DNA of 64,000 nucleotides from Solidesulfovibrio carbinoliphilus subsp. oakridgensis (lineage in GTDB: Bacteria > Desulfobacterota > Desulfovibrionia > Desulfovibrionales > Desulfovibrionaceae): the NCBI RefSeq assembly GCF_000177215.2, contig NZ_CM001368.1, positions 744,001 through 808,000 of the forward strand, given 5' to 3'. The translations under genes were made by a program, and so were the position numbers. How positions within the stretch are numbered: the stretch's first letter is position 1; the number at the start of each line of letters is the position of its first letter. This document shows, in pieces, positions 35,139 to 54,792 of this stretch. The notes under the pieces were generated by a model. It ran no database searches and was not told the origin of the DNA. It saw only the letters and a list, made by a program, of their open reading frames with translations.

Positions 35139-35171
35139 AAAAGAACGGCCGCGACAGACGTCGCGGCCGTT
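35139..35171 (-). terminator. Rho-independent terminator of the lactate operon
   Basis: AACGGCCGCGAC (35144-35155), loop AGAC, GTCGCGGCCGTT (35160-35171) form a perfect 12-bp stem. On the minus strand it is followed by TTCTTTTTGC. It lies 24 bp past the stop of the lutB-lutA fusion. Confidence 0.85.
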
Positions 35172-35194: not shown

Positions 35195-37354
35195 CTATTT
35201 GCGCTTCAGGCGCTCGGCCAGATATTCGGCCACGTGACGGACCTCGAAGGAGGTGCCGTCGCGTTCGAAGCCGCCCCGGATCTGCATGATGCAGCCCGGA
35301 CAGTCGGTGGCCATGGCCGTGGCGCCGGTGGCCTTCAGGTTGTTGATCTTTTTCTGGAGCAGTTCCTTGGACAGTTCCGGGAACTTGACCGAGAAGGTGC
35401 CGCCAAAGCCGCAGCACACGTCCTCTTCCTCGGCCGGCAGGTATTCCATGCCCGCGTCCCGCAAAAGCGCCCTCGGGGCCTCGGTCACGCCAAGTCCCCG
35501 GCACAGGTGGCAGGGCGCGTGGTAGGTGACCTGTTTGGACGGGCCGGCAAAGGACTCTTCCGTCAGGCCGAGGATGTCCCGGACGAAGGAACTGAAGTCC
35601 ATGACACGGTGGGCGAACTGGGCCGCCTTGAAGGCCATGGCCGGGTCGTCCTTGAAAAGGCGCTTGTAGCCGTGCTTGAGGTACGAGGCGCACGAGGCGC
35701 ACAGGGTGACGATGTAGTCGAAGCCCTGGGCGTCGATGGCGTTCATGTTGTGGGCGGCCAGTTCCCGGCCGGCCTTTTTTTCGCCCATCATCATGAGCGG
35801 CAGGCCGCAGCAGGACTGGCCCATGGGATACTCCATGGACACGCCTTTCTTGCTGGCAATGACCGCCACGGCGGCCTCCATCTGCTCGGGATAGACAAAG
35901 TCCTGCACGCAGCCCGAGAAAAGGGCCACCTTGAGGTCGGCGTTCTCGACCCGGGGCCTGATCTTCTCCCACCGGTCCCGGAAGGCCTCGTCGGCGATGG
36001 CCGGCAGGGCCCGGAAGTCCTGGTCCTTGAACAGGAACATGGGCAGATGGCGCAGATAGGGCGTGCCACCGGTGAGGGGCTTTTGCACCAGACGCGCGGA
36101 CTTGAGCATGGCGTGAAAGAGCGTGCGGTTTTTAAGGAGCGCCCCCGTGGCCGAGGAATAGAGCGGATGGCCTTCCTCGTCCTGAATGCGGGCGTGCACT
36201 TCCTTGATGAGCGTCGGCAGGTCGATGCCGGCGGCGCAGACAGCCTTGCAGGCCCCGCAGTTGAGGCAGTTCTGGACCAGGTTTCTGGCCTTTTCCCGAC
36301 CGTGGAAGAAGTAGGTGGCAACCAGCCCGATGGCCCCGATGTAGACGTGGCCGTACTTGTGGCCGCCGACCACCCGGTAGATGGGGCAGACGTTGGCGCA
36401 GGCCCCGCACCGGATGCAGCGCAGCACCTGCTTGAATTCCGGATCCCTGGCCATGGCCAGGCGGCCGTTGTCCAGGAAGACCACGTGGTGGACCTTCTTG
36501 CTCCCAGGGCCGACGGCCGTGGGCACCGCGCCCGTGATCCAGGTGACGTAGGAGGTGATGGCCTGGCCGGTGGCGTTTTTGGGCAGGCATTTGATGATGC
36601 GAAGGGCGTCGTGGAGTGTGGGCGCGAGCTTGTCGATGCCGGCCAGGGCCACGTGGACCCGGGGCAGGGTGGTGGTCAGCCGGCCGTTGCCCTCGTTGGT
36701 GATGATGCCGATGGTGCCGGTGGCGGCAATGGCGAAGTTGGCGCCGGAGATGCCCATGTCGGCCTGGCAGAATTTGGGGCGCAGTTCCCGGCGGGCCACC
36801 TTGACCAGCTTCTGGATGTCCACGTCCTGCTGCTTGTGGGTGACCTCGGTAAACAGGTCGGCCACCTGGTAGCGGGAGAGGTGGATGGCCGGCATGACCA
36901 TGTGGGACGGGCCTTCCTGGCGCAGCTGAATGATCCATTCGCCGAGGTCCGTTTCCGTCACTTCCAGGCCCTCGGCCTCGAGGTGGTGGTTGAGGTGGGT
37001 CTCCTCGGCGGTCATGGACTTGGATTTGACGATGGTCTTGACGCCGTTTTCCTTGGCGATCCGGGCGATGATCTCGTTGGCCTCGCGGGCCGTGGCCGCG
37101 AGATGGACCGTGGTGCCGGCGGCTTCGGCGTGTCGCTTGAACTCCTCGAAGAGTTCCTGGAGATGGTCCACGGCCTCGTCCTTGGCCGCAGCGATTTCGG
37201 CGATCAGCTCCGGAGCGTCGATGCCGGCAAAGGCATTGGCCCGGGAAGTGCGGTAGGCCACGGCGAACTTGTCCAGGGCCTGGCGCTGAAAGTCGTTTTC
37301 CAGGGCCTCGCGCAGCTGCTTGCGGTATTCCTTGAGGGTGCAGGCGTCTTGCAT
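35195..37354 (-). CDS. LutB-LutA fusion iron-sulfur protein of L-lactate dehydrogenase
   Basis: This is part of the LutABC-type L-lactate dehydrogenase that oxidises lactate to pyruvate. The 719-residue protein has an N-terminal LUD domain (about 60-300), two ferredoxin-like clusters (CIRCGACANVCP, about 312-323, and CLNCGACKAVC, about 361-371) as in LutB, and a C-terminal pair of CCG domains (CCGLPLMMMG and CCGFGGTFS) as in LutA. So LutA and LutB are one polypeptide here. The corresponding D. vulgaris protein (DVU3033, from memory) has the same plan. It starts directly after the lutC stop and ends the operon. Confidence 0.9.
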   Translation of the reverse strand: MQDACTLKEYRKQLREALENDFQRQALDKFAVAYRTSRANAFAGIDAPELIAEIAAAKDEAVDHLQELFEEFKRHAEAAGTTVHLAATAREANEIIARIAKENGVKTIVKSKSMTAEETHLNHHLEAEGLEVTETDLGEWIIQLRQEGPSHMVMPAIHLSRYQVADLFTEVTHKQQDVDIQKLVKVARRELRPKFCQADMGISGANFAIAATGTIGIITNEGNGRLTTTLPRVHVALAGIDKLAPTLHDALRIIKCLPKNATGQAITSYVTWITGAVPTAVGPGSKKVHHVVFLDNGRLAMARDPEFKQVLRCIRCGACANVCPIYRVVGGHKYGHVYIGAIGLVATYFFHGREKARNLVQNCLNCGACKAVCAAGIDLPTLIKEVHARIQDEEGHPLYSSATGALLKNRTLFHAMLKSARLVQKPLTGGTPYLRHLPMFLFKDQDFRALPAIADEAFRDRWEKIRPRVENADLKVALFSGCVQDFVYPEQMEAAVAVIASKKGVSMEYPMGQSCCGLPLMMMGEKKAGRELAAHNMNAIDAQGFDYIVTLCASCASYLKHGYKRLFKDDPAMAFKAAQFAHRVMDFSSFVRDILGLTEESFAGPSKQVTYHAPCHLCRGLGVTEAPRALLRDAGMEYLPAEEEDVCCGFGGTFSVKFPELSKELLQKKINNLKATGATAMATDCPGCIMQIRGGFERDGTSFEVRHVAEYLAERLKRK

Positions 37355-37981
37355 CTAGTTGTCCTCCAACACGAGGATATGCAGTTCGAGCGGGCCGTGC
37401 ACGCCAAGGGCCAGCACGCGTTCGATGTCGGCGGTGCGGCTCGGGCCGGTGATGAACGCCGTGTAGTCCGGTTGCTGCATCCACTCGACGAGCCTCGGCT
37501 CGAGATCATAGGAATCGGCCACGATGACCGAAGCCGGCAGGATGGCGATGTGGGTCTCGGCGATCATGGTGGCCAGCCGGACCTCCTCGTTGGCGGAACG
37601 AAGGACGATGGTGCCGGTTTCGGCGATGCCGGCATCGGCCATGGTGAGCGCGATGTCGATGCCGCCGAGGCGGTCGCGCATGCCGTCCGTGATGACGGCG
37701 ATGCCGCGCTCGTCGCAAAGGCTCCGGAGCTTCGCCACTGCGTCGGCGGGCATGGCCGGGGCGCAGATGATTTTTTGCTGCTTGGTCTCGCACAGGGTGG
37801 CGGCCGTTTGGGACAGCGGCTCCGCGCACCCGGAGACGAGGATCTGGCAGGCGTCCTTGTTGGCGCAGACGTCGGCCACATAGGCCAGCGCCTCTTCCAT
37901 GGAGGCCACGGAACGGACATCAGCCGACACAAGGCCGGCTTTCTCCTTCAGACGGTCGACCAGGGGATTTGGAGTCGACAT
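37355..37981 (-). CDS. lutC: LutC/YkgG-type LUD-domain protein
   Basis: The 208-residue protein is a LUD-domain partner of the LutA/LutB iron-sulfur protein in L-lactate oxidation. Family features are EEALAYVADVCANKDACQIL in the first half and the C-terminal glycine-rich stretches ADAGIAETGTIVLRS and LPASVIVADSYDLEP. GAGAGG precedes the ATG at 37981. It abuts the downstream fusion gene with no gap, so the two are coupled. A very strong hairpin (38009-38049) separates it from the upstream permease. Confidence 0.88.
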   Translation of the reverse strand: MSTPNPLVDRLKEKAGLVSADVRSVASMEEALAYVADVCANKDACQILVSGCAEPLSQTAATLCETKQQKIICAPAMPADAVAKLRSLCDERGIAVITDGMRDRLGGIDIALTMADAGIAETGTIVLRSANEEVRLATMIAETHIAILPASVIVADSYDLEPRLVEWMQQPDYTAFITGPSRTADIERVLALGVHGPLELHILVLEDN

Positions 37982-38063: not shown

Positions 38064-39698
38064 TTAGGGAAGCATCCACTTCAGGGCGTAGGCCTGGAGC
38101 AGGGTCAGCACGGCGACGAAGCCGAGCATGGCCAGGGAGTGGGGCAGGGTGAAGCGGAAGATGTCGCCTTCCTTGCCAACCATGTTCGAGGCCGCGGTGG
38201 CCACGGAGATGGACTGGGGCGAGATCATCTTGCCGGTAACGCCGCCCGAGGAGTTGGCGGCCACGGTCAGGTGCGGATCGACGCCGATCTGCTGGGCCGT
38301 GGTCTTCTGGAGCGAACCGAACAGGGCGTTGGACGAGGTGTCCGAACCGGTCAGGAACACGCCCAGCCAGCCAAGGATCGGCGAGAAGAACGGGAACAGC
38401 GCACCCGTGGCGGCAAAGGCCAGACCCATGGACGAGCTCATGCCCGAGTAGTTCATGATGTAGGCCAGGCCCAGGATCATGGCGATGGTGGCGATGGGCC
38501 AGCGCAGCTGCTTGATGGTGCGAATCAGGCAGGCAAAGCCCTTGCCGAAGCCGTAGCCAGGCATGAAGAGGATGGAGATCAGACCGGCAAACAGGATGGC
38601 CGTGCCCGGAGTGGACAGCAGGTTGAGGTTGAAAACGGCCGGATACGGGGTATCCGTGGCCACGACGGGGGCGGACTTCATGACCAGGTTATGCAGGCCC
38701 GGCCATTCGAACTTCATGAAGAAGATCTTGTCCAGGATGGCCTTGAAGGAATCGATGCCCCAGAAAAAGACCATGATGGCCAGGATGATGTAGGGAAGCC
38801 AGGCGCGGAAGATCTCGCCACCGGAGAATTCCGAGGCCACAGCGCGCTGGGAGGCCGGCGCCTCGTCCGGGAAGTGCCAGGTCTGCTTGGGTTTCCAGAC
38901 CTTGAGGAACAGGCCGAGGCCAATAATGGTGACGATGGCCGAGATGATGTCGGGCAGGTAGGGGCCGACGAAGTTGGAAACCAGGAACTGGGAACCGGCG
39001 AAGCAGACGCCGGCAATGATGACGGCCGGCAGGATTTCCATGGTGCGCTTGAAGCCGCACATGGTGACCGAGATCCAAAGCGGAACAATGATCGACAAAA
39101 ACGGCAACTGGCGGCCGCAGATGGCGCTGATCTTCATCATGTCGAGGTCGGTGACCTTGGCCGCGACCACGATGGGGATGCCGATGGCGCCGAAGGCCAC
39201 CGGGGCGGTGTTGGCGATCAGGCAGATACCGGCGGCGTAGAGCGGGTTGAACCCGAGGCCGACCAGCATGGCCGCGGTGATGGCGACCGGGGTGCCAAAG
39301 CCGGCCGTGCCCTCGATGAACGAGCCGAAGGCGAAGGCGATGAAGATGGCCTGGAGCCGACGGTCGTCGGTGATCTGGGCCAGGGAGTTCTTGATGATGT
39401 TGAACTCGCCGGACTCGACGGTCATGTTGTAGACCCAGATGGCCGTGATGACGATCCAGACAATGGGGAAGATGCCGAAGGCGGCGCCGTAGAGGGTGGC
39501 GTCAACAGCAAGCCCCACAGGCATGCCCCAGGCCACGATGGCCAGGATGACGGCCGCGAGCGTGGCCGCGAACGCCGCCTTGTGGCCGGCCATGCGTTTG
39601 ACGGCCAGCATGTAGAAAAGCATGTACAGCGGAATGCCTGCCACCAGCGCGGACAGACCCACGCTGCCAAGCGGTTGGTACTGTTGGACCCACGTCAT
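38064..39698 (-). CDS. L-lactate permease
   Basis: This 544-residue LctP-family permease imports lactate, probably by proton symport. It has about 13 hydrophobic segments. Family stretches include GSFIEGTAGFGTPVAITAAM (about 120-140), CLIANTAPVAFGAIGIPIVV and the C-terminal AANSSGGVTGKMISPQSISV. The start MTWVQQYQPLGSVGL at 39698 has GAAGGAG nine bases upstream. It lies in the lactate operon between the DRTGG gene and lutC, and is bracketed by two hairpins without U-tracts. Confidence 0.94.
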   Translation of the reverse strand: MTWVQQYQPLGSVGLSALVAGIPLYMLFYMLAVKRMAGHKAAFAATLAAVILAIVAWGMPVGLAVDATLYGAAFGIFPIVWIVITAIWVYNMTVESGEFNIIKNSLAQITDDRRLQAIFIAFAFGSFIEGTAGFGTPVAITAAMLVGLGFNPLYAAGICLIANTAPVAFGAIGIPIVVAAKVTDLDMMKISAICGRQLPFLSIIVPLWISVTMCGFKRTMEILPAVIIAGVCFAGSQFLVSNFVGPYLPDIISAIVTIIGLGLFLKVWKPKQTWHFPDEAPASQRAVASEFSGGEIFRAWLPYIILAIMVFFWGIDSFKAILDKIFFMKFEWPGLHNLVMKSAPVVATDTPYPAVFNLNLLSTPGTAILFAGLISILFMPGYGFGKGFACLIRTIKQLRWPIATIAMILGLAYIMNYSGMSSSMGLAFAATGALFPFFSPILGWLGVFLTGSDTSSNALFGSLQKTTAQQIGVDPHLTVAANSSGGVTGKMISPQSISVATAASNMVGKEGDIFRFTLPHSLAMLGFVAVLTLLQAYALKWMLP

Positions 39699-39794
39699 GT
39701 TCTTTCGCTCCTTCGGGTTGATAATTAACCATCCGCTCCCGTTCCCGCGGCACGGCAACGGGTGCAGGCCAAACGCGCTCCTTTCGCCGGTATC

Positions 39795-39832
39795 CCGGGG
39801 CAACGCGGCCGCCTCGGTCCGCGTTGCCCCGG
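39795..39832 (-). other. Strong hairpin between DRTGG gene and lactate permease
   Basis: CCGGGGCAACGCGG (39795-39808), a 10-nt loop and CCGCGTTGCCCCGG (39819-39832) form a perfect 14-bp stem, 7 bp past the stop of the DRTGG gene. No U-tract follows, so readthrough into the permease is likely. Confidence 0.7.
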
Positions 39833-39839
39833 AAGGTGG

Positions 39840-40904
39840 TTAGAGTCCCAGATTCCTTTTGAGGGCCGCCAAGTTGACGGCCTGCTGCACGAGCTTGGTG
39901 CCGTGCTCGATGCGCGATTTATCGCGCAGTTTTTCCCGGGTCAGCATGAGCTCCATTTTCTTGGCCACGGTGAAGGTGTCGTCGCGCACCACGATGACCG
40001 GCACGCCCTTGTCCTCGGCCTTGGCCAGGATGATGTCGTTGGGATAGAGGTTGCCGGTCAGAATGAGCGCGGCGCAGCCGCCTTCGAGGGCCACCAGCTG
40101 CAGGTCCGCCCGGTCGCCGCCGCACAGGATGGCGACGTCCTTGTGACGCTTGAAGAAGGTGACGAAGTTTTCCACCTGCATGGTGCCGATCAGGAAGTTG
40201 ACGACCAGGTTGTCGGTGCGCCCGCCCGAGGAAATCATCCGGCCGCCGAGGCCGTGGGCCAGATCGCCGGCCCGGACCGCGAACATGATGGGATCGTGGG
40301 GAATGATACCGAGCACGTCCACGCCGCGGCGCTTCAAAAACGGGGTGATGAGCGTTTCGGCTTCCTCGCGGAAGTGTTCGGGCACGTCGTTTAGGATGAC
40401 GCCGGCCAAGTCGTCGCCAAGGGCCTCCTTGGCCGCGGCTAGGTAGTCGTAGTTGTATTCCTGGAGGTAGCGGTCGACGAGGACGACCTTGGCCCCGAGG
40501 GCCTGGGCCACGGAGATGCCGTCCACGCCGCAGTACTTGCCGGAGTAGAGGAAGCTGCCCGAGCCGCCGACCAGCATCAGGTCCTTGTCGGCCGATAGCT
40601 TCTTGTAGCTGTCGACGATGCCGGGCAGGAGGTTGGCGCAGTCTTCGAGGAAGGCCCGCATGCGGAAGTCCCGGGTGATGACCACGGGCGTGACCAGGGA
40701 CGGGGTTTCGGAGAGGCCCAAAGCCTGCTGCATGAAATGGGCGTCTTCGTCGCCGATCTGGTTCTCGATCTTGTGGGGCACGGCGCCGACGGGTTTCATG
40801 TAGCCGACCCGGTGGCCTTCGCGCTGAAACTGCTGCCCCAGGGCCAGGGTGACGAGGTTTTTACCCGAGAATCCCTGCGTGGACCCGATATAGAGACCGA
40901 TCAT
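39840..40904 (-). CDS. DRTGG-domain protein of the phosphotransacetylase N-terminal family
   Basis: The 354-residue protein has a BioD-like P-loop domain (GSTQGFSGKN, residues 7-16; LMLVGGSGSF) and a DRTGG-like domain (about 210-320, GGDRADLQLVALEGGCAALIL). This matches the regulatory N-terminal half of long Pta proteins, but the catalytic PTA/PTB domain is absent, so it cannot be a phosphotransacetylase by itself. The gene follows the ADP-forming acetyl-CoA synthetase by 24 bp. A role in sensing or controlling acetyl-CoA conversion is inference. A hairpin lies just after its stop. Confidence 0.8.
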   Translation of the reverse strand: MIGLYIGSTQGFSGKNLVTLALGQQFQREGHRVGYMKPVGAVPHKIENQIGDEDAHFMQQALGLSETPSLVTPVVITRDFRMRAFLEDCANLLPGIVDSYKKLSADKDLMLVGGSGSFLYSGKYCGVDGISVAQALGAKVVLVDRYLQEYNYDYLAAAKEALGDDLAGVILNDVPEHFREEAETLITPFLKRRGVDVLGIIPHDPIMFAVRAGDLAHGLGGRMISSGGRTDNLVVNFLIGTMQVENFVTFFKRHKDVAILCGGDRADLQLVALEGGCAALILTGNLYPNDIILAKAEDKGVPVIVVRDDTFTVAKKMELMLTREKLRDKSRIEHGTKLVQQAVNLAALKRNLGL

Positions 40905-40928: not shown

Positions 40929-43037
40929 TTAGGCGGAAAGGGTGATGCGCACGTCGGCCACCACGGCCTTTTCGGCATTGACCAGCACCGGATTGAACTC
41001 TGCCTCCTGGATCTCCGGGAAGTCCAGGGAGAGTTCGGACATCGTGAGCAGGATGTCCTCGATGGCCTGGAAGTTGATCGGCGGCTCGCCGCGCACCCCT
41101 TTGAGCAGCATGTAGGACTTGATCTCGCGGATGATGGCCTTGGCGTCGTCACGGCCGAGCGGGGCCAGACGGAAGGCGATGTCTTTTAGGATCTCCACGT
41201 AGATGCCGCCGAGGCCGAACATCAGAAGCGGACCGAACTGGTCGTCGCGCTTGAAGCCGATGATGATTTCCTTGCACCCCTTGGGGGCCATTTCCTGGAC
41301 CAGACAGCCGGCGATGTAGGCTTCGGGACGCAGGCGCTGGGCCCGGGCCGTGATGTCGAAAAACGCGTTCCGGACAGCCTCGGCGTCGGGCAGGTTCACC
41401 TTGACGCCGCCGACGTCGGATTTGTGCGAGATCTGGGGGGAGGCGATCTTTAAGACCACCGGATAGCCGATCTTGTCGGCTCCGGCCACGGCCTCGTCCG
41501 ACGATCGGGCGAGCACCGTGTTGGGCGTCGGCAGGTTGTAGGCGCGCAGCACTTCCTGGGCCTGGAATTCGACCACTTCGGTCGCGCCCTTGGCCCGGGC
41601 CTCGTTGATGACGAGCCTGGCCTTCTGGCGGTTGCGCTTGATGGTCGGGTACTCCTGGGCCGGGGTCTGGCGCCACAGGTAGTACTTGTACATGGTTTCG
41701 ATGCTGGCAATCAGCGGCTCGGGATAGATGGAGCAGGGGATGCCGGCGTCGTTGAGCATCTGTTGGCCGGGACGGGTGCGCATGCCGCCCATGTAGTTGA
41801 CGAAGATGGGCTTTTTGGTGGTCTTGGCCACGTCGATGATGGCTTGCGCCGTTTCCATGATCTCGGCCGAGGCGGTCGGGGTCAGGAGCACCAGGATGGA
41901 GTGGACCTGGGGATCGTCGACCACCACTTCGAGGGTCTTCCTGTAGCGCTCGGCCGGAGCGTCGCCGATCAGGTCGATGGGGTTGTAAAGCGAGGCGTAG
42001 GGGGGCAGGAATTCCTTCAGGCGGTCGATGGTGGCGTTGCTTAAGCGCGCCATATTGATCAACTGGGATTTTTCCGTGGCGTCGGCGGCCAGGATGCCGG
42101 GGCCGCCGGAGTTGGTGACCACGCACAGGCCGGGTCCCTCGGGCAGGGGCTGGGTGGAGAAGGCCTGGGCCAGGTCGAAGAGCGTGGCCATGTCTTCGGC
42201 CCGGATGACGCCGGTCTTGCGGAAGGCGGCGGAGTAGGCGGCATCCGAGCCGGCGATGGCGCCGGTGTGGGAGGAAGCGGCCTTGGCCCCGGCCGTGGTC
42301 GTGCCGGACTTGATCATGATGACCGGCTTTTCACGGGTAATTTTGGCGGCCTCCTCGATGAAGGCCGCGCCGTGTTCGACGTTTTCTATGTACCCGAGGA
42401 TGACCTTGGTGTCGGGGTCGGTGCGGAGAAACTCCAGCATGTTGGCTTCGTTGATGACGGCCTTGTTGCCGAGAGAGATGAACTTCGAAAAGCCCACGTT
42501 CTCACCCAGGGCCCAGTCGAGGATGGCGGTGCAAAGGGCGCCTGACTGGGAGAAAAAGGCGATGGAGCCTTCCTTGGGGTAGCCGGCGGCGAAGGAGGCG
42601 TTGTTGTGGTTCTGGGTGCTGATAAGACCCAGGCAGTTGGGGCCGACCATGGCCACGTCGTTGGCCGTGCAAAGCTCGATAAGCTTTTGCTCCAGGACGT
42701 AGCCTTCCTTGCCCACTTCCTTGAAGCCGGCCGTGATGATGATCACGGACCTGACTTTCCTGGCGATCAGCGCCTCCACGGACGGCACCACCGCGCCGAC
42801 CGGGACAACGATGACGGCCAGATCGAGGCCTTCGGGCAGGTCCTCGATGCGCTTGGTCACGGGCAGACCCAGGATTTCGTCGGCCTTGGGATTGACGGGA
42901 ATAAGCGTGCCCGTATACCCCGCATCCTGCATGTTGGCGACCACCGTATGGCCGACCTTGCCCGGCGCTGCCGAAGCGCCGATGACGGCTACGGTTTTGG
43001 GCGCAAACAGCGCTTGGATATTGTCTTTCAAACTCAT
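40929..43037 (-). CDS. Acetate--CoA ligase (ADP-forming), fused alpha-beta
   Basis: ADP-forming acetyl-CoA synthetase converts acetyl-CoA, ADP and Pi to acetate, CoA and ATP. The 702-residue protein has the CoA-binding domain (VAVIGASAAPGKVGHTV), the succinyl-CoA ligase-like domains with the phosphohistidine His257 in SSHTGAIAGSDAAY, and a C-terminal ATP-grasp domain from about 480 (YPVVLKIASPQISHKSDVGG). His257 matches the numbering I recall for the characterised archaeal alpha subunit. It sits in the lactate operon where D. vulgaris has pta and ackA, so it probably provides substrate-level phosphorylation. Confidence 0.92.
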   Translation of the reverse strand: MSLKDNIQALFAPKTVAVIGASAAPGKVGHTVVANMQDAGYTGTLIPVNPKADEILGLPVTKRIEDLPEGLDLAVIVVPVGAVVPSVEALIARKVRSVIIITAGFKEVGKEGYVLEQKLIELCTANDVAMVGPNCLGLISTQNHNNASFAAGYPKEGSIAFFSQSGALCTAILDWALGENVGFSKFISLGNKAVINEANMLEFLRTDPDTKVILGYIENVEHGAAFIEEAAKITREKPVIMIKSGTTTAGAKAASSHTGAIAGSDAAYSAAFRKTGVIRAEDMATLFDLAQAFSTQPLPEGPGLCVVTNSGGPGILAADATEKSQLINMARLSNATIDRLKEFLPPYASLYNPIDLIGDAPAERYRKTLEVVVDDPQVHSILVLLTPTASAEIMETAQAIIDVAKTTKKPIFVNYMGGMRTRPGQQMLNDAGIPCSIYPEPLIASIETMYKYYLWRQTPAQEYPTIKRNRQKARLVINEARAKGATEVVEFQAQEVLRAYNLPTPNTVLARSSDEAVAGADKIGYPVVLKIASPQISHKSDVGGVKVNLPDAEAVRNAFFDITARAQRLRPEAYIAGCLVQEMAPKGCKEIIIGFKRDDQFGPLLMFGLGGIYVEILKDIAFRLAPLGRDDAKAIIREIKSYMLLKGVRGEPPINFQAIEDILLTMSELSLDFPEIQEAEFNPVLVNAEKAVVADVRITLSA

Positions 43038-43073: not shown

Positions 43074-44378
43074 CTAACGCCTGGCCAGGGTCTCCGCGTA
43101 GATCTCCACCGGATGCCGGATGGCCAGCTGGTCACCGGCCTGGGACAGCATGTCGCCTATCTGCAGCATGCAGGCCGGGCAGCTCGTGGCCACCACGGAG
43201 GCACCCGTGGCCACGATATTGTCCCGCTTGCGTTTGCCGATCCGCTTGGAAAGGTCGTAATGCTGCAAGGTGAAGCTGCCGCCGGAACCGCAGCACGAAT
43301 CCGCGCCCTCCATCTCGATGAGCCGGTAGCGCGGGTTGGTCGCGATAAGGGCCCTGGGCTCGGCGGATATGCCCAGGGATTTCTTGAGGTGGCAGGGATC
43401 GTGGTAGGTGACCGTGGTCTCGTCGCCGCCGGAGGCGCCGGCGAGGGCGGAGACACCCACGTCCTGGATCAGAAAGGCGCTTATGTCCTTCACCTTGGCG
43501 GCCAGCTCCCGGATCTTGAACCGGGTGGTCTCGGGCAGGTTCTCGGCCATAAGCGGCCACAGCTTCTTGATGGTCGAGGTGCAGGTGGCGCAGGGCGTCA
43601 CCAGCACGTCGAAGTCATGGTCGCCGAAAAGGGCCATGTTGCTGGCCACCAATGCCTCGAAGGTCTCCCGGTCGCCGGAGGACAGGGCCGGGATGCCGCA
43701 GCAGGCCTGGCCGTGAGGCATGTAGACCCCGACGCCGTGGTGGTCGAAGACCGTCAGGGCGGCGTCGGCGATGCGCGGGAACATCTTGTCCACCACGCAG
43801 CCGTAGAAAAAGGCCACCTTCTTGCCGGAAAAGCCCCGGGGCGCGTCCCGTTCCGCCACCTTCGCGTGCAGCGGCGTACCGGCCAGGGGCGCGAAATGGC
43901 GGCCCCCGATCAGGTCGGAGAAGACCCGCGAGCACGAGGAGCCGATCATGTCGTTGACCGGCCGGGTGAAGATGCCCTGGAACTTGGCCGCGATGGCCAG
44001 GACCGAGTCAAAGAGCCGAGGATTTTTGAGAAGTCCCCGGAAAATGGCCTTCTTGACCGGGGGCAGGCCGTAGTAGCCGGTCAGGAAGGCGCGGGCCTTG
44101 AGGAAAATGTCCAGGGCCTTGACGCCGCTCGGGCAGTTGGCCTGGCACGAGCCGCACAGGAGGCAGGCGTCCAGGCGCTCCTTGACGCCGGCCGGGTCCT
44201 TTATGACCTCGTCGGCCAGGCATTCGAGCAGGGCGATCTTGCCCCGGGCCACGTGGCCTTCAAGCCCGGTTTCGGCGTACAGCGGACACACGGCCTGGCA
44301 CATGCCGCAGCGCATGCAGGCCACCAACTGGTCGTCGATCTGCTTGAGAAGCCGTACGAGCTCTTGCATCTCGCTCAT
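43074..44378 (-). CDS. GlcF-type Fe-S subunit of lactate/glycolate dehydrogenase
   Basis: The 434-residue protein has two [4Fe-4S] motifs (CMRCGMCQAVCP at 21-32 and CLLCGSCQANCP at 72-83) and two C-terminal CCG domains, visible as the pocket sequence GQACCGIP and GADSCCGSGG. It passes electrons from the flavoprotein encoded next to it (1-bp gap) to the membrane or a soluble carrier. The layout matches DVU3028 of the D. vulgaris lactate locus as I recall it. It precedes the acetyl-CoA synthetase gene by 36 bp. Confidence 0.92.
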   Translation of the reverse strand: MSEMQELVRLLKQIDDQLVACMRCGMCQAVCPLYAETGLEGHVARGKIALLECLADEVIKDPAGVKERLDACLLCGSCQANCPSGVKALDIFLKARAFLTGYYGLPPVKKAIFRGLLKNPRLFDSVLAIAAKFQGIFTRPVNDMIGSSCSRVFSDLIGGRHFAPLAGTPLHAKVAERDAPRGFSGKKVAFFYGCVVDKMFPRIADAALTVFDHHGVGVYMPHGQACCGIPALSSGDRETFEALVASNMALFGDHDFDVLVTPCATCTSTIKKLWPLMAENLPETTRFKIRELAAKVKDISAFLIQDVGVSALAGASGGDETTVTYHDPCHLKKSLGISAEPRALIATNPRYRLIEMEGADSCCGSGGSFTLQHYDLSKRIGKRKRDNIVATGASVVATSCPACMLQIGDMLSQAGDQLAIRHPVEIYAETLARR

Positions 44379-44379
44379 G

Positions 44380-45759
44380 TCATTCCCCCGTGATCTTGCC
44401 GGGATTGAGAATACCCTTGGGATCCAGGGCCTTTTTAAGCTTTTGGGCGTAGAGGATGGAACCCTTGCCGACTTCCTTGATCATGTACTTGGACTTGGCC
44501 GTGCCGATGCCGTGCTCGCCGGACAGCGTACCGCCAAGGGACAGGGCCACGTCGAAGATCTCGTCGATGGCCGCCTCGACCCGCTTGAATTCCTCATGAT
44601 CCCGTTTGTCCGTGAGGATGGTCGGGTGCAGGTTGCCGTCGCCGGCATGGCCGAAGGTGCCGATGGTGAGCCGGTACTTGGCCGCGATCTTTTCCAGGGC
44701 CCCGACCATGGCCGGGATCCGGGAACGGGGGACGGTCGCGTCCTCGAGTACCGTGGTCGGGCGGACCCGGGCCAGGGCGGACAGGGCGGCCCGGCGGGCC
44801 TCCCAGACCTTGTTGCGCTCGGCCGCGTCCTTGGCCACCTGGATGCGGGTGGCGCCGACGCGGCGGCATATGGCCTCGACCTCGGCCGCCTCGTCCTCGA
44901 CCTGGGCCGGATGGCCGTCCACTTCGATCAAGAGCAGGGCCTTGGCGTCGGTCGGCAGTCCGGCGTGGGCGAAGTCCTCCACGGTCTTGATGGTGAAGTC
45001 GTCCATGTATTCGAGGGTGGCGGGCACGATTTTGGCCGCGATGATGGCGGCCACGGTCTCGGAGGCTTTGCCCAGGTCGTCGAAGATGGCCATCATGGCC
45101 TTGCTGGCCTTGGGCGGGGGCACGAGCTTCAGGATGATCTCGTTGAAGACGCCAAGGGTGCCTTCGGAGCCGACCATGAGGCCGTGCAGGTTCATGCCGG
45201 TGACGCACTTGACGGTGCGCGACCCGGTTTTGACCAGCTCGCCGTCCACGTCATAAAGGCTCATGCCCATGACGTAGTCCTTGGTGACCCCGTATTTCAG
45301 GCCGCGCAGGCCGCCGGCGTTTTCCGCCACGTTGCCGCCGATGGTGGACACGGCCTGGCTGCCCGGATCGGGCGGGTAGAAAAGGCCGCGCTTGGCCACT
45401 TCGGCCGCGAATTTTGCCGTTACCACGCCGGTCTGGACCACGGCGTACATGTCGGCTTCGTTGATCTCGATGATCTTGTTGAGGGCTCCGGTCAGAGCGA
45501 CCACCCCCCCCACGGAGGGGATGGTGCCGCCGGAGAGGTTCGTGCCGGAGCCGCGTACGGTCAGCGGCAGACCCAGCTCGTTGCAGGTTTTCACCACCCG
45601 TCCCAGGGCTTCGGGCGTCTCGGGGCGAACGGCCAGGGCCGGGAGTTTGGGCGGCAGGACCGCCGCATCGTAGGAATAGGCGTGTCGGTCCACCTCGCTG
45701 GCCAGGACGTTGTCCTTGCCGACGATTTCCTCGAACTTCTGGGACAGGTGGTTATCCAT
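44380..45759 (-). CDS. FAD-linked D-lactate (or glycolate) dehydrogenase, GlcD family
   Basis: The 459-residue flavoprotein has the PCMH-type FAD-binding fold: VRGSGTNLSGGTIPSVGGVV, PPDPGSQAVSTIGGNVAEN and NAGGLRGLKYGVTKDYVMG in the first half, and the FAD-oxidase C-terminal domain with FGHAGDGNLHP and LSGEHGIG metal/substrate elements. In D. vulgaris the homologue with its GlcF-type partner acts on D-lactate. It lies 21 bp after por and 1 bp before the Fe-S subunit gene. The substrate stereochemistry cannot be read from sequence alone. Confidence 0.93.
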   Translation of the reverse strand: MDNHLSQKFEEIVGKDNVLASEVDRHAYSYDAAVLPPKLPALAVRPETPEALGRVVKTCNELGLPLTVRGSGTNLSGGTIPSVGGVVALTGALNKIIEINEADMYAVVQTGVVTAKFAAEVAKRGLFYPPDPGSQAVSTIGGNVAENAGGLRGLKYGVTKDYVMGMSLYDVDGELVKTGSRTVKCVTGMNLHGLMVGSEGTLGVFNEIILKLVPPPKASKAMMAIFDDLGKASETVAAIIAAKIVPATLEYMDDFTIKTVEDFAHAGLPTDAKALLLIEVDGHPAQVEDEAAEVEAICRRVGATRIQVAKDAAERNKVWEARRAALSALARVRPTTVLEDATVPRSRIPAMVGALEKIAAKYRLTIGTFGHAGDGNLHPTILTDKRDHEEFKRVEAAIDEIFDVALSLGGTLSGEHGIGTAKSKYMIKEVGKGSILYAQKLKKALDPKGILNPGKITGE

Positions 45760-45780: not shown

Positions 45781-49446
<3,666 letters not shown>

Positions 49447-49502
49447 TTAAAAGTTGTCGTTCGACCGAACAGAGAAAGGCCGGGGTCGACGCTTTCTCCT
49501 AA

Positions 49503-49518
49503 GGCAATCCTCGTGCCA
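49503..49518 (-). promoter_or_regulatory. Sigma54 promoter of the lactate operon
   Basis: On the minus strand TGGCACG-AGGA-TTGCC matches the -24/-12 consensus TGGCACG-N4-TTGCW at all but the last base. The transcript would start near 49492, about 50 nt upstream of por. Confidence 0.85.
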
Positions 49519-49674
49519 CTCGTAAAAAGACAATAGAAATTCGGTGAGTTGCGAATCAGGAAAATCGACTCCAGGCCCGGGTGCGGGATGGCCCTCCGGT
49601 TTTCCGGATGCCATTTTCAGTGCTAATACCGTGATATATATGGGTTCGTAAAGAGATTCCCGAGTCCCTCGGCC

Positions 49675-49719
49675 TGTCCGGATTTTCAGACAGTCCTTTT
49701 CTGTCTGAAAAATCGGACA
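49675..49719. promoter_or_regulatory. Two inverted 18-bp sites, candidate binding sites of the sigma54 regulator
   Basis: TGTCCGGATTTTCAGACA (49675-49692) and TGTCTGAAAAATCGGACA (49702-49719) are inverted copies (two differences) with centres 27 bp apart, each itself a TGTC-N10-GACA palindrome. They lie about 183-227 bp upstream of the predicted start point, a usual distance for sigma54 activators. Confidence 0.75.
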
Positions 49720-49963: not shown

Positions 49964-51382
49964 TCAGTCCGGAATGGCCAGACCGTTTTTTTTCAGCAGG
50001 GCGTAAAAATGGGACCGGGAAAGGCCGGAGATGTCGATCATGGCGGCCACGTCCCGGCCCTGCTCACGCAGGAGGCCTTCGAAGTAGCGGCGTTCCATCC
50101 CTTCCTTGAAGTCCTTGAGGGCCTGGCGGCCGATGGGCAGGGGAGAGAGAGGCACCTCGGCCACGACCGGGTCCTTGGAGTTCTCAGGAGGTTGCAGCCC
50201 CCGTTCCAGGGTCGATTTGGTCACCTTGATGCGCAGGTCCTGGGGCAGGTGCATGCTGTAGAGGGTCTTTTCGCGGCCCGAGGCCAGAAAGGCCCGTTCC
50301 AGCACGTTTCGCAGCTCCCGCACGTTGCCCGGCCAGTCGTAGGCCTCGAGCATGGTCAGAAATTCCGCGTCAAACCCCTTGGGCGGCAGGTTGTATTCGG
50401 CGCAAAGGCCGTCCACGAAGGACAGGGTCAGGGGTTTTATGTCTTCGGGGCGGGCGCGCAGCGGCGGCAGGGGCAGTCCGATGGTCTTCAGGCGGAAATA
50501 CAGATCGCGACGGAACTGGCCGTCCTCGACCATGGCCTCGAGGTTGCGGTTGGTGGCCGCGATCAACCGGAAATCGCTTTTGTGCTCCTGGATGGCTCCG
50601 ACCGGGCGAAAGGTCTTTTCGTGGAGCACCCGCAAGAAGGTCTTTTGCAGGGAGAGCGGCATCTCGCCCACCTCGTCGAGGAAAAGTGTGCCCCCGTCGG
50701 CCAGTTGCACCAGCCCGACCCGGTCGGCGTCGGCCCCGGTAAAGGCCCCTTTCCGGTGGCCGAAAAGCGTGCTCTCGACCAGCGTTTCCGTCAGCGAGGC
50801 GCAGTCCACTGTGACGAACGCCCCCTTGGACCGGGAACTGTTGGCGTGGATGAGCCGGGCGAAAAGTTCCTTGCCCGTGCCGGTCTCGCCGGTGACGAGG
50901 ACCGCGGCGTTGGACCAGGCGGCGTGGGCCACCTGGTCGAGGCAGGGCTGCATGCGGGGGCTGACCGTCACGCACCCGGCCAGGGACAGGGAGACCGGGG
51001 CCCGGTCGCAGCGCCGCTCCTCGCGATAGCGCAGGGCCCGTTTGAGGGTCAGCATGATCTGCTTGATGGGCGACGGCTTGACCAGATAGTCCCACACCCC
51101 TTCCTGGATGGCCAGTTCCGCGCCGTCCGGATCGCCGATGCCGGTCAGGATGATCACTTCCGGGGCGTCGGGCAGGCGCTTGATGCCGGGCAGGGCGGCC
51201 AGGCCGTTGCCGTCCGGGAGGCGGACGTCGAGAAAGACGACGTCGAAGCTCTCCCGGGACAGGAGGTCCATGCCGGCGGCCAGTGTGCCGGCGGCGTCGC
51301 TGGTCAGGCGCATCTTGCGCGTGAGGCTCAAAATGGTGTCGCGGACTTCCGGGTCGTCGTCGATGATGCAGACGGATTTCAT
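49964..51382 (-). CDS. Sigma54-dependent response regulator (LurR-like)
   Basis: This 472-residue NtrC-type activator has a receiver domain (1-115; Asp in VVFLDVRLPDG), an AAA+ domain with Walker A GETGTGKE (about 163-170) and the sigma54-contact loop GAFTGAD (about 214-220), and a C-terminal Fis-type helix-turn-helix (about 430-468). It overlaps its cognate kinase gene by four bases. It lies directly upstream of por, as the LurR gene (DVU3023) does in D. vulgaris, where LurR controls lactate genes. The paired sites at 49675-49719 are its likely targets, which is inference. Confidence 0.92.
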   Translation of the reverse strand: MKSVCIIDDDPEVRDTILSLTRKMRLTSDAAGTLAAGMDLLSRESFDVVFLDVRLPDGNGLAALPGIKRLPDAPEVIILTGIGDPDGAELAIQEGVWDYLVKPSPIKQIMLTLKRALRYREERRCDRAPVSLSLAGCVTVSPRMQPCLDQVAHAAWSNAAVLVTGETGTGKELFARLIHANSSRSKGAFVTVDCASLTETLVESTLFGHRKGAFTGADADRVGLVQLADGGTLFLDEVGEMPLSLQKTFLRVLHEKTFRPVGAIQEHKSDFRLIAATNRNLEAMVEDGQFRRDLYFRLKTIGLPLPPLRARPEDIKPLTLSFVDGLCAEYNLPPKGFDAEFLTMLEAYDWPGNVRELRNVLERAFLASGREKTLYSMHLPQDLRIKVTKSTLERGLQPPENSKDPVVAEVPLSPLPIGRQALKDFKEGMERRYFEGLLREQGRDVAAMIDISGLSRSHFYALLKKNGLAIPD

Positions 51383-54300
51383 GCGGCTTTGGTCTGGGGC
51401 TTGGCGTCGAGCACCTCGCGGATGGCCGCGGAGATGATCGCCTGGTTGTAGGGCTTGAGCACGATTTTGCGGATGTTGCCGACCATCTCCCGCTCCTCGA
51501 CGTCGCCGAGGCGGCCGGAAACCAGGATGACGGGCAGGCGGGGGGCTACGGCCGCGATCTTGCCGGCCAGTTCCAGGCCGTTTAGGTCCGGCATGTCGAA
51601 GTCGGTGATGCAGACGTCGAAGGCGTCCGGGTCGGCGGCCAGCCGGGCCAGGGCCGAAGCTCCGCCGCCGTGGGCCGAGACCTCGTGGCCGAGCTGGGCC
51701 AGGACGCGGGGGATGGTCAGGAGCTGGTCCTCGTCGTCCTCGACGAAAAGGATGCGGTCGCGTCCCCGGTTGGCCGAGGCCGCGGGCAAGGCCGCCGGGG
51801 CGTCGGCGTCGGCCAGGAGCGGCAGAAAGACATCGAACCCGGTGCGGCTGCCGGGCTGGCTGACCACCCGCACGGCCCCGCGGTGGCCCTTGACGATGCC
51901 GCGCACCACGGCCAGGCCAAGGCCGGTGCCCTCGCCTTTCTGCTTGGTGGTGAAAAACGGGTCAAAGATCTTGTCCATGATTTCCGGCGGGATGCCCGGG
52001 CCCGTGTCCACGATGGAGAGCCGGGCATGGCGGCCGGCCCGGACGCCGACGATCCCGGCCAGGGTTTCGTCCAGTTCGTCCTCGGCCAGGGCCAGGGTCA
52101 GGACGCCGCCGGTCTCGCGCATGGCCTGGAAGGCGTTGGTGCACAGGTTCATGACGATCTGGTGGAGCTGGGTCGGGTCGGCCCGGCAGGTGACGGCGGT
52201 TTCCGGGGTGTCCACCACGATCTTGATGTTGCGCGGCATGGAGGCCTTGATGAGCCCGGCCGCCTCGCTGACCACGTCGACCACGTTTATGGCCGCGAAT
52301 CCCGCCTGGGACGGACGGGTGAAGGACAGGATCTGCTTGACCAGCCGGCTGCCGCGCTCCCCGGCCCGCAGCACCCGGCGCATGTCGTCCTCGATGGGTT
52401 CGTCGGGCGGCAGGTCCATGAGGGCCAGTTCGGCGGAGTTGATGATGGAGGTCAGGATGTTGTTGAAGTCGTGGGCGATGCCGCCGGCCAGGGTGCCGAT
52501 GGCCTCCATCTTCTGGGATTGGAGAAGTTGGCGCTCGAGGCTCACCTTCTGGGTCACGTCCTCGGCCGTGGACAGGACGCCGACCACCGCCCCCCGGTCG
52601 TCGTGGAGGGGTACCTTTTTGATTTCCAGAAGCACGTCCGCGCCCCGGACATTTCGGGCGGCCAGCTCCCCGGACACCGTCCGGTTGTTGCGCATGACGT
52701 CGACGTCCGTGGCCCTGACCGCGTCCATGTCCTCCTGGCGCAGGGGCAGGGCGTAGTCGTCCCGGCCCATGAGGTCATCCAGGTCGGCGAAGCCGAAAAA
52801 CTCGATAAAGGCCCGGTTGGCGCCGATGTAGCGCAGGGCCTTGTCCTTCCAGGAGACGAGCTGGGGGATGTTGTCGAGCACCAGGCGCAGCATCTCCTGG
52901 GATTCGCGCAGGGCCCGCTCGGCCTCGTGGCGCTTGGTCACGTCCTCGACCACGCCTTCGACGTAGGCGAGGTAGCCGTCCCGGTCGGCCACCAGGCGCA
53001 TGTTGATGTTGGCCGTGACGAGCCGGGCGTCCGGGCGGACGAAGCGGGTTTCGAATTTGACCGTGGCGTCCTCGTCCACGGCCGAGCCGATGAGCGCCTC
53101 GAACCGGGCCCGGTTGGAAAAGAGCACGTCGAGCAGGTCGCCCCGGCGTTCGGCCAGGGTGTCTAGGTCCTCGACCCCGAGCATGGCGAGCAAGGCCGGA
53201 TTGACGTCCACGGCCCGGCCGTCCGGGGTCATGCGGAAGATGCCAAGCGCCGAATTCTCGAAGATGCCGCGATATTTCTCTTCGGCCAGTCGCAGCTTCT
53301 CGGCGGCCCGCTTGAGTTCCGACACGTCGTAGAGCACCCCGACCAGGCCCGCGATCTCGCCCTTGGCGCTTTCATAGACCGCCCGGTGGAGGATGACCGA
53401 GTGGGAGGTGTTGTCCGCGTCCAGGATCTCGGTTTCGCCGACCCGCACGCCGGGCTCGCGCAAGAGCCCGGCGTCTTCCACGTCCAGGGACCAGGACAGG
53501 GGGGCGTCGTCCATCCCGCCGCAGCCCTCGATGGGCGGATGCTCGCCCGTTACGCCGCACCAGCGGCGAAAGGCGGTGTTGCAGCCCCGATACGCGCCAG
53601 CCCCGTCCTTGTAGTAGATGGGGATGGGGATGGTGTTGACGAGGGTTTCCAGGAAGGACAGCTGGTCCTTGATCTTCTCCTCCACGGATTTGCGTCGCAG
53701 GATGTTGGTCACGAGCAGGACCATGACGTAGCAGAGGATGAGAAAGCTTACGATGATGGTCCAGAAGACCGCGATGTTGATGTGGTAGAAGGGGTAGGGT
53801 TCGTTTATGAGGGTAAAGCCCGAGGGCAGCTTGTCGGAGGTGATGCCAAGGCGCACCATCTCTTTGAAATCGAAGATGTAGGTGTCGTTGGTTTGGGTGA
53901 CGATGGGCAGGTCGGCCACGGGCGTGCCGCGGAGGATCTTTTCGGCCATGTCGGCCACGAGGCGTCCTTCCTCGATGCCGCTGTGCAGCCTGCCGCCGAC
54001 GATGCCGTGGCCGAGCATGAACTGCCAGGCGCTGTAGATGGGCACGTCGGAATTGGCCCGGATGGCGGCCAGGACCTCGTTGACCGAATAGACGTCCTTC
54101 TGGGTATCCTTGTAAAAGGGGATCAGGAAGATCATGGCATCGTCCGGCAGACCGCGCACGGTGTCGAGGATCTGCGCCAGGGCCAGGTTGTCCTGGTATT
54201 CGAAATGCAGCCGGCCGGCGAAGGCAGGCTCCACGGCCCGCAACTGGTTGCTGATGGCCAGTCCCGTGACCGAGGAATCGCCGAACACGATCAGGCGGCG

Positions 54301-54792
54301 GCGGTCCGGGTGGAAGCGCAGGGCCAGCTCCAGGGTCTCGCGGATGTCCGGCTCCTCGAGGACCCCGGTGAAGTTCGGATGCCCGGCCAGCCACTCGGGG
54401 TGGAAGTCGTTGACCCCGCAAAAGACGAGAGGCGTGCCGGGAAACAGTTCGTCCTGGTATTGGCGCAGGAACTCGAAGGCGTAGTTGTCCGAGGCCAGGA
54501 TGACGTCAAAACGGGTGTTGCGGTACTTGAGGCGGTAAAAGTCGTGGAGCATGCCGCGCAGCGTGGGATCCGTGTACTTTTTCGAGTCCATGTACTCGAT
54601 TTGCAGGTCCACGTTGAAGTCGGATTTCTCCAGTCCCGCACGGATGCCGGCCAGGATCTCGTCGGACCACTGGTAGCCGTTCTGGTAGGAGTTGAAATAC
54701 AGGACGTTCTTCCTGACCTTCTCCGCCGCCCAGGCAGGGTGGGGCAGGAGGCAGGCCAGGAGAAAAAGCCATGCGAAAAGCCTTGGGCCCAT
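51379..54792 (-). CDS. Hybrid sensor histidine kinase with periplasmic ABC-type binding domain and PAS domains
   Basis: The 1137-residue kinase has a signal peptide (1-22, ...[11 protein letters not shown]), a periplasmic domain resembling ABC substrate-binding proteins (about 28-325; [17 protein letters not shown]), a membrane helix (about 340-364), three PAS domains (about 385-755), HisKA with the His in [14 protein letters not shown] (near 770), HATPase ([20 protein letters not shown]) and a C-terminal receiver (Asp in VCITDFDMP, near 1060). It should phosphorylate the overlapping sigma54 regulator. The periplasmic domain suggests sensing an extracellular small molecule, perhaps lactate, but the ligand is not known. 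Confidence 0.92.

Follow-up and report, generated by a model that had tools for sequence, protein, structure and literature searches.

For these sulfate reducers the central energy pathway is lactate oxidation, whose level is set by the por promoter. The stretch of Solidesulfovibrio carbinoliphilus DNA analysed here (64 kb in full, hereafter the window) places por at the head of a lactate operon and raises the question of which regulator would act on this promoter, and from which sites. We consider it very probable that this is a sigma54 promoter under LurSR control, driving the lactate/pyruvate oxidation (luo/por) operon.

The por promoter, its operon and the lurSR genes

A -24/-12 element, TGGCACGAGGATTGCC, was located on the minus strand at 49518-49503. 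This recomputation agreed with the initial annotation, which had read a near-consensus TGGCACG-N4-TTGCC about 60 bp before por. The element carries the -24 GG and the -12 GC and is the only instance of TGGCACG-N4-TTGC or TGGCA-N6-TTGC on either strand of the 64-kb window. Transcription is predicted to start at 49492, 58 nt 5′ of the por ATG (49434); mapping of the por transcript in D. vulgaris put its start 12 bp downstream of the -12 element (PMC4481167). A -24/-12 element upstream of por is conserved in relatives across the order, and the genome contains one sigma54 gene together with the GAFTGA-type AAA+ activator described below.

This activator is encoded by lurR (49964..51382, minus strand), and Pfam and alignment identified in its product the parts of an NtrC-type response regulator: a receiver, a sigma54 AAA+ domain with GAFTGAD and a C-terminal HTH. 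By alignment, GAFTGAD and the HTH segment SGLSRSH-YALLKK are conserved among LurRs. The gene overlaps by 4 bp lurS (51379..54792, minus strand), which encodes a hybrid sensor kinase with, according to Pfam, a weak ABC_sub_bind-like N-terminal region, PAS domains, HisKA, HATPase and a receiver. The adjoining sigma54 response regulator with GAFTGAD and its hybrid kinase, as first proposed from the letters of the sequence, were thereby recovered at the domain level. Gene order is lurS-lurR-por, all on the same strand, and a terminator-like hairpin with a T-rich tail, a consensus match only, lies over the lurR stop codon (49965..49985, minus strand).

The operon, also on the minus strand, begins with por (45781..49434), encoding pyruvate:ferredoxin oxidoreductase (TIGR02176, 1914.6 bits). 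There follow genes for a GlcD-like D-lactate dehydrogenase subunit (44380..45759; TIGR00387, 515 bits, below the glcD cut-off, with its function taken from D. vulgaris dldII-A), a probable Fe-S D-lactate dehydrogenase subunit (43074..44378; by analogy with dldII-B), an ADP-forming acetyl-CoA synthetase-like protein (40929..43037; NF045493, 663 bits, and TIGR02717, 554 bits, both below cut-off) and a pta N-terminal-like protein of the DVU3031 type (39840..40904). Next comes lctP (38064..39803; TIGR00795, over cut-off), the only lactate permease found in the genome, whose true start is probably downstream of the TTG of the open reading frame. The last two genes encode a LutC/LldG-like L-lactate dehydrogenase subunit (37355..37981; weak family matches, in the position of lldG in D. 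vulgaris) and the quinone L-lactate dehydrogenase large subunit, ldhH (35195..37354; NF045670, 1102.9 bits). Intergenic gaps do not exceed about 82 bp, and a strong terminator-like hairpin (35144..35171, minus strand; 12-bp stem, CTTTTT) ends the operon. The length of 14 kb initially given for the controlled operon holds from por at 49434 to the hairpin at 35171-35144; that the whole of it is under this control is what we would expect by analogy.

The ADP-forming acetyl-CoA synthetase-like gene occupies the place of pta-ack in the operon. No acetate kinase was found in this genome, nor in any of the 10/10 tested genomes of the genus; 103/119 genomes of the family have an acetate kinase match. 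Replacement of pta-ack by ADP-forming acetyl-CoA synthetase has already been noted in six species (PMC4481167).

LurR-type sites upstream of por

Two inverted 18-bp sites of the form TGTC-N10-GACA, with two differences between them, had been reported further upstream, and both were confirmed on the minus strand. The distal site, TGTCCGATTTTTCAGACA (49702..49719), is centred at -218.5 from the predicted start and has the best PSSM score of the window (25.0); the middle site, TGTCTGAAAATCCGGACA (49675..49692), is centred at -191.5 and scores 23.9. Compared as an inverted pair they are identical at 16/18 positions, with 27 bp between their centres. When the 529-bp intergenic region was shuffled by mononucleotides 20,000 times, no shuffle held two TGTC-N10-GACA motifs within 60 bp of each other, and the 18-bp consensus TGTCYGRWWWWTCRGACA is matched nowhere else in the 4.2-Mb genome with fewer than two mismatches. 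Both sites match the published LurR motif, including the EMSA-tested D. vulgaris sites GTCCGCTTTTTCAGAC and GTCCACTTTTTCAGAC (PMC6456213).

The motif was compared among relatives, a check suggested by the initial annotation. Relatives of lurR were found in 187/297 genomes of the order; the region beyond lurR was read at 110 loci, of which the 60 with por adjacent and a usable start were analysed. In these 60 upstream regions, a dyad search run without a motif seed returned the LurR motif first, making it the top conserved dyad: TCCG-N6-CGGA and GTCC-N8-GGAC were each shared by 36/60, GTCT-N8-AGAC by 28/60 and TGTC-N10-GACA by 26/60, compared with at most 3 in dinucleotide shuffles. The check came out in favour of the proposal: relatives that have the regulator do carry the motif ahead of por. 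A PSSM built from sites in the relatives' por upstream regions gave 148 sites above 12 bits, as against 0.4 in mononucleotide shuffles.

The match to the EMSA-tested sites and the conservation upstream of por in genomes with lurR support the reading of the sites in the window as LurR-type sites. The window also shows two features expected of the LurR regulon, an orthologue of lurR immediately ahead of the lactate operon and the 16-bp LurR motif before por. The earlier proposal that LurR binds here gains from the match and the conservation, but its count was incomplete, with three sites present and not two. The third, CATCCGGAAAACCGGAGG (49593..49610, minus strand; PSSM 7.8), was absent from that account; it lies closest to the promoter, with its centre at -109.5, and its PSSM rank is third among sites of the promoter region and fourth across the window.

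A 27-bp spacing between the centres of the twin sites had been taken to suggest cooperative binding. The spacing is indeed fixed in the genus (10/10 genomes read) and recurs in genus g19, and the sites of NtrC-type proteins commonly come in pairs. Elsewhere, however, the pair is spaced by 22-24, 28-29, 33-34 or 39 bp, or there is a single distal site, so that neither spacing nor phase is constant across relatives beyond the genus and g19, and the phases show no common helical setting (Rayleigh p = 0.16). Moreover, 27 bp corresponds to 2.57 turns at 10.5 bp per turn, which would put neighbouring dimers on nearly opposite faces of the DNA. The 27-bp spacing is largely a genus trait and says little in favour of cooperativity; cooperative binding itself is possible, and that LurR binds the twin sites cooperatively thanks to this spacing strikes us as rather unlikely.

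The locus resembles the LurSR/DVU3025-3033 luo operon of D. vulgaris Hildenborough (PMC6456213, PMC3333781, PMC4481167), in which the same lurS-lurR pair stands upstream of por and which likewise has a sigma54 promoter, three GTCC-N8-RGAC-type sites, a permease, two lactate dehydrogenases and por. There, LurR has three 16-bp binding sites ahead of por, among them GTCCGCTTTTTCAGAC, and activates the operon about 2-fold on lactate (PMC6456213), as the initial annotation had rightly stated of the lactate genes. The published positions of those sites, -389, -350 and -250, with the promoter at -136, are counted from the start codon, a scale that differs from the positions relative to the transcription start used here. 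The LurR target was identified by DAP-chip in 2011 (PMC3333781) and is included in a sigma54 regulome paper (PMC4641369), and LurR sites, in most cases three to a promoter, are reported as a conserved feature of Desulfovibrionales (PMC6456213). Since motif, promoter and lurSR adjacency match the published system, the window, judged by its sequence, is a further instance of this already described LurSR/sigma54 por-lactate system and not a new one. It differs from the D. vulgaris operon in having the ADP-forming acetyl-CoA synthetase instead of pta and ack, the permease near the operon end, and a weak proximal site with altered arms. In D. vulgaris a sigma70 promoter also overlaps in the por promoter region (PMC4481167), whereas a simple scan of this por promoter region found no sigma70-type promoter, and a motif scan of the genome found no strong second LurR target. 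Our additions to the published system are the third, proximal site, its fixed position, and the twin spacing as a genus trait.

When the whole genome was scanned with the looser 16-bp pattern, three extra strict matches were obtained. They were rejected as LurR targets, being stems of terminators after 5S rRNA genes. These stems (C1:1853423, C1:2550305 and C1:3931740; L113-L115) carry GTCTGTTTTTGCAGAC, a mimic of the LurR 16-mer that would produce false targets in a motif scan. As the remaining strict matches are rRNA terminators, the por operon may be the only strong LurR target of the genome.

Position of the promoter-proximal site

All congeners with por adjacent have a site at the proximal position, centred at -107.5 to -109.5. 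In most members of the genus its arms read ATCCG...CGGAT (ATCCG-N6-CGGAT) instead of GTCCG...CGGAC. Besides the site in the window, that of just one congener (L011) falls below the cut-off; it reads CATCCGGCTTCTCGGATA and lies at -107.5. A further weak LurR-like site, at -377.5 from the predicted start, was observed in L011 and in congeners L008 and L009, and was not seen in the window.

When the best-scoring sigma54 element was simply used in each genome, a site was found between -160 and -60 in 57/60 genomes and at -117 to -122 in 47/60. Across the ten genera represented by these 47, the SD of the proximal position is 0.9 bp, a value partly built in by choosing the genomes from the -117 to -122 range, so that the strength of the result lies in 47/60 falling within a 6-bp range. 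The nearest distal site, in the same genomes, has an SD of 24 bp and the leader one of 80 bp, the latter figure including some likely mis-assigned promoters, and the spacer has diverged to 28% ungapped identity between genera. Across relatives it is the proximal site that stays in place, whereas the distal sites, the length of the leader and the sequence of the spacer differ. Comparison thus adds a testable rule, that proximal site and promoter keep their distance within about 1 bp in many genera, even as the distal sites shift and the leader changes in length by tens of bases. In L089 (genus g51) the best-scoring sigma54 element is probably misplaced; the second-best restores the proximal site to -117.5, and the position rule can therefore help to locate a promoter.

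The proximal position falls into classes: most of the order has it at about -118.5; this genus and g2, with -109, have it one helical turn closer to the promoter, and g36, with -99 to -100, about two turns. Loci where lurR has no adjacent por show the same positions (-108.5 to -110.5 in g2 and about -119 in others), and the LurR protein tree requires several changes between position classes. That the shifts are full helical turns is no more than suggested (six deviating genera, one-sided p = 0.07), and the -105.5 position in g4 and g19 fits it poorly.

NtrC-type sigma54 enhancers share with this locus palindromic dimer sites 100-220 bp upstream of -24/-12 and a GAFTGA AAA+ activator. Here, unlike in those systems, the distance from proximal site to promoter is nearly fixed across the order, and no conserved IHF-like site lies between: such sites were not enriched between the LurR sites and the promoter (7/60 versus 5.0 in shuffled sequences). 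We tentatively propose that activation by LurR depends on a promoter-proximal site in a fixed location, a stereospecific and IHF-independent enhancer geometry that would contrast with the usual distance-tolerant enhancer; we find this conceivable, and somewhat less probable than its opposite. If true, a sigma54 enhancer could require fixed geometry without a conserved site for a bending protein.

Proposed activation and competing uses of the sites

In the mechanism that we favour, LurS would sense lactate or a related signal and phosphorylate LurR, whose dimers would occupy the two strong distal palindromes (-218.5 and -191.5) and the weak proximal one (-109.5). Bound LurR would form an AAA+ oligomer whose GAFTGA loop, brought close by looping of the DNA, would contact sigma54-RNA polymerase at -24/-12. 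This contact would drive open complex formation at about 49492 and yield a single transcript from por to the terminator after ldhH. We infer that the oligomer nucleates on the strong distal pair and that the proximal site sets it in place for productive contact. LurR binding at this locus, por activation and the response to lactate are carried over from D. vulgaris and would hold here by analogy.

The proximal site scores only 7.8 bits, and no IHF-like site is conserved where the loop would form; both count against the LurSR reading. By analogy with D. vulgaris, where deletion of lurR lowered por only about 2-fold on lactate and left it unaffected on pyruvate (PMC6456213), and where a sigma70 promoter overlaps, LurR is presumably not the sole control of por.

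The sites might instead be used mainly by another sigma54 activator with a similar HTH. NrfR can do so in D. vulgaris, binding the LurR sites in vitro (PMC6456213), and the genome encodes a sigma54 regulator (C1:3459611-3461005; L219) whose HTH, SGLSRSRLYALLKK, is almost identical to that of LurR. This paralogue could be a competitor at LurR sites, in the manner of NrfR in D. vulgaris. We nevertheless hold such main use to be improbable, given that lurR and the operon are neighbours in about 60 motif-bearing genomes, that no strong LurR-type motif was found near this paralogue or near any of the four closest ones, and that the nitrite reductase gene is far from those four.

Control by LurSR also has to be set against the idea that the twin sites are no operators, and form one long inverted repeat acting as RNA, a terminator or attenuator of the lurSR transcript; the region transcribed leftwards does fold as a strong hairpin (-37.6 kcal/mol, z -5.4), but we regard this as highly improbable, because no U-tract follows the stem of the twin pair, a terminator-like hairpin with a T-rich tail is already present at the lurR stop (49985-49965), in many relatives the distal palindrome is single or the palindromes stand 99-134 bp apart, arrangements that are unable to form such a hairpin, and any inverted pair of palindromic operators would fold in this way.
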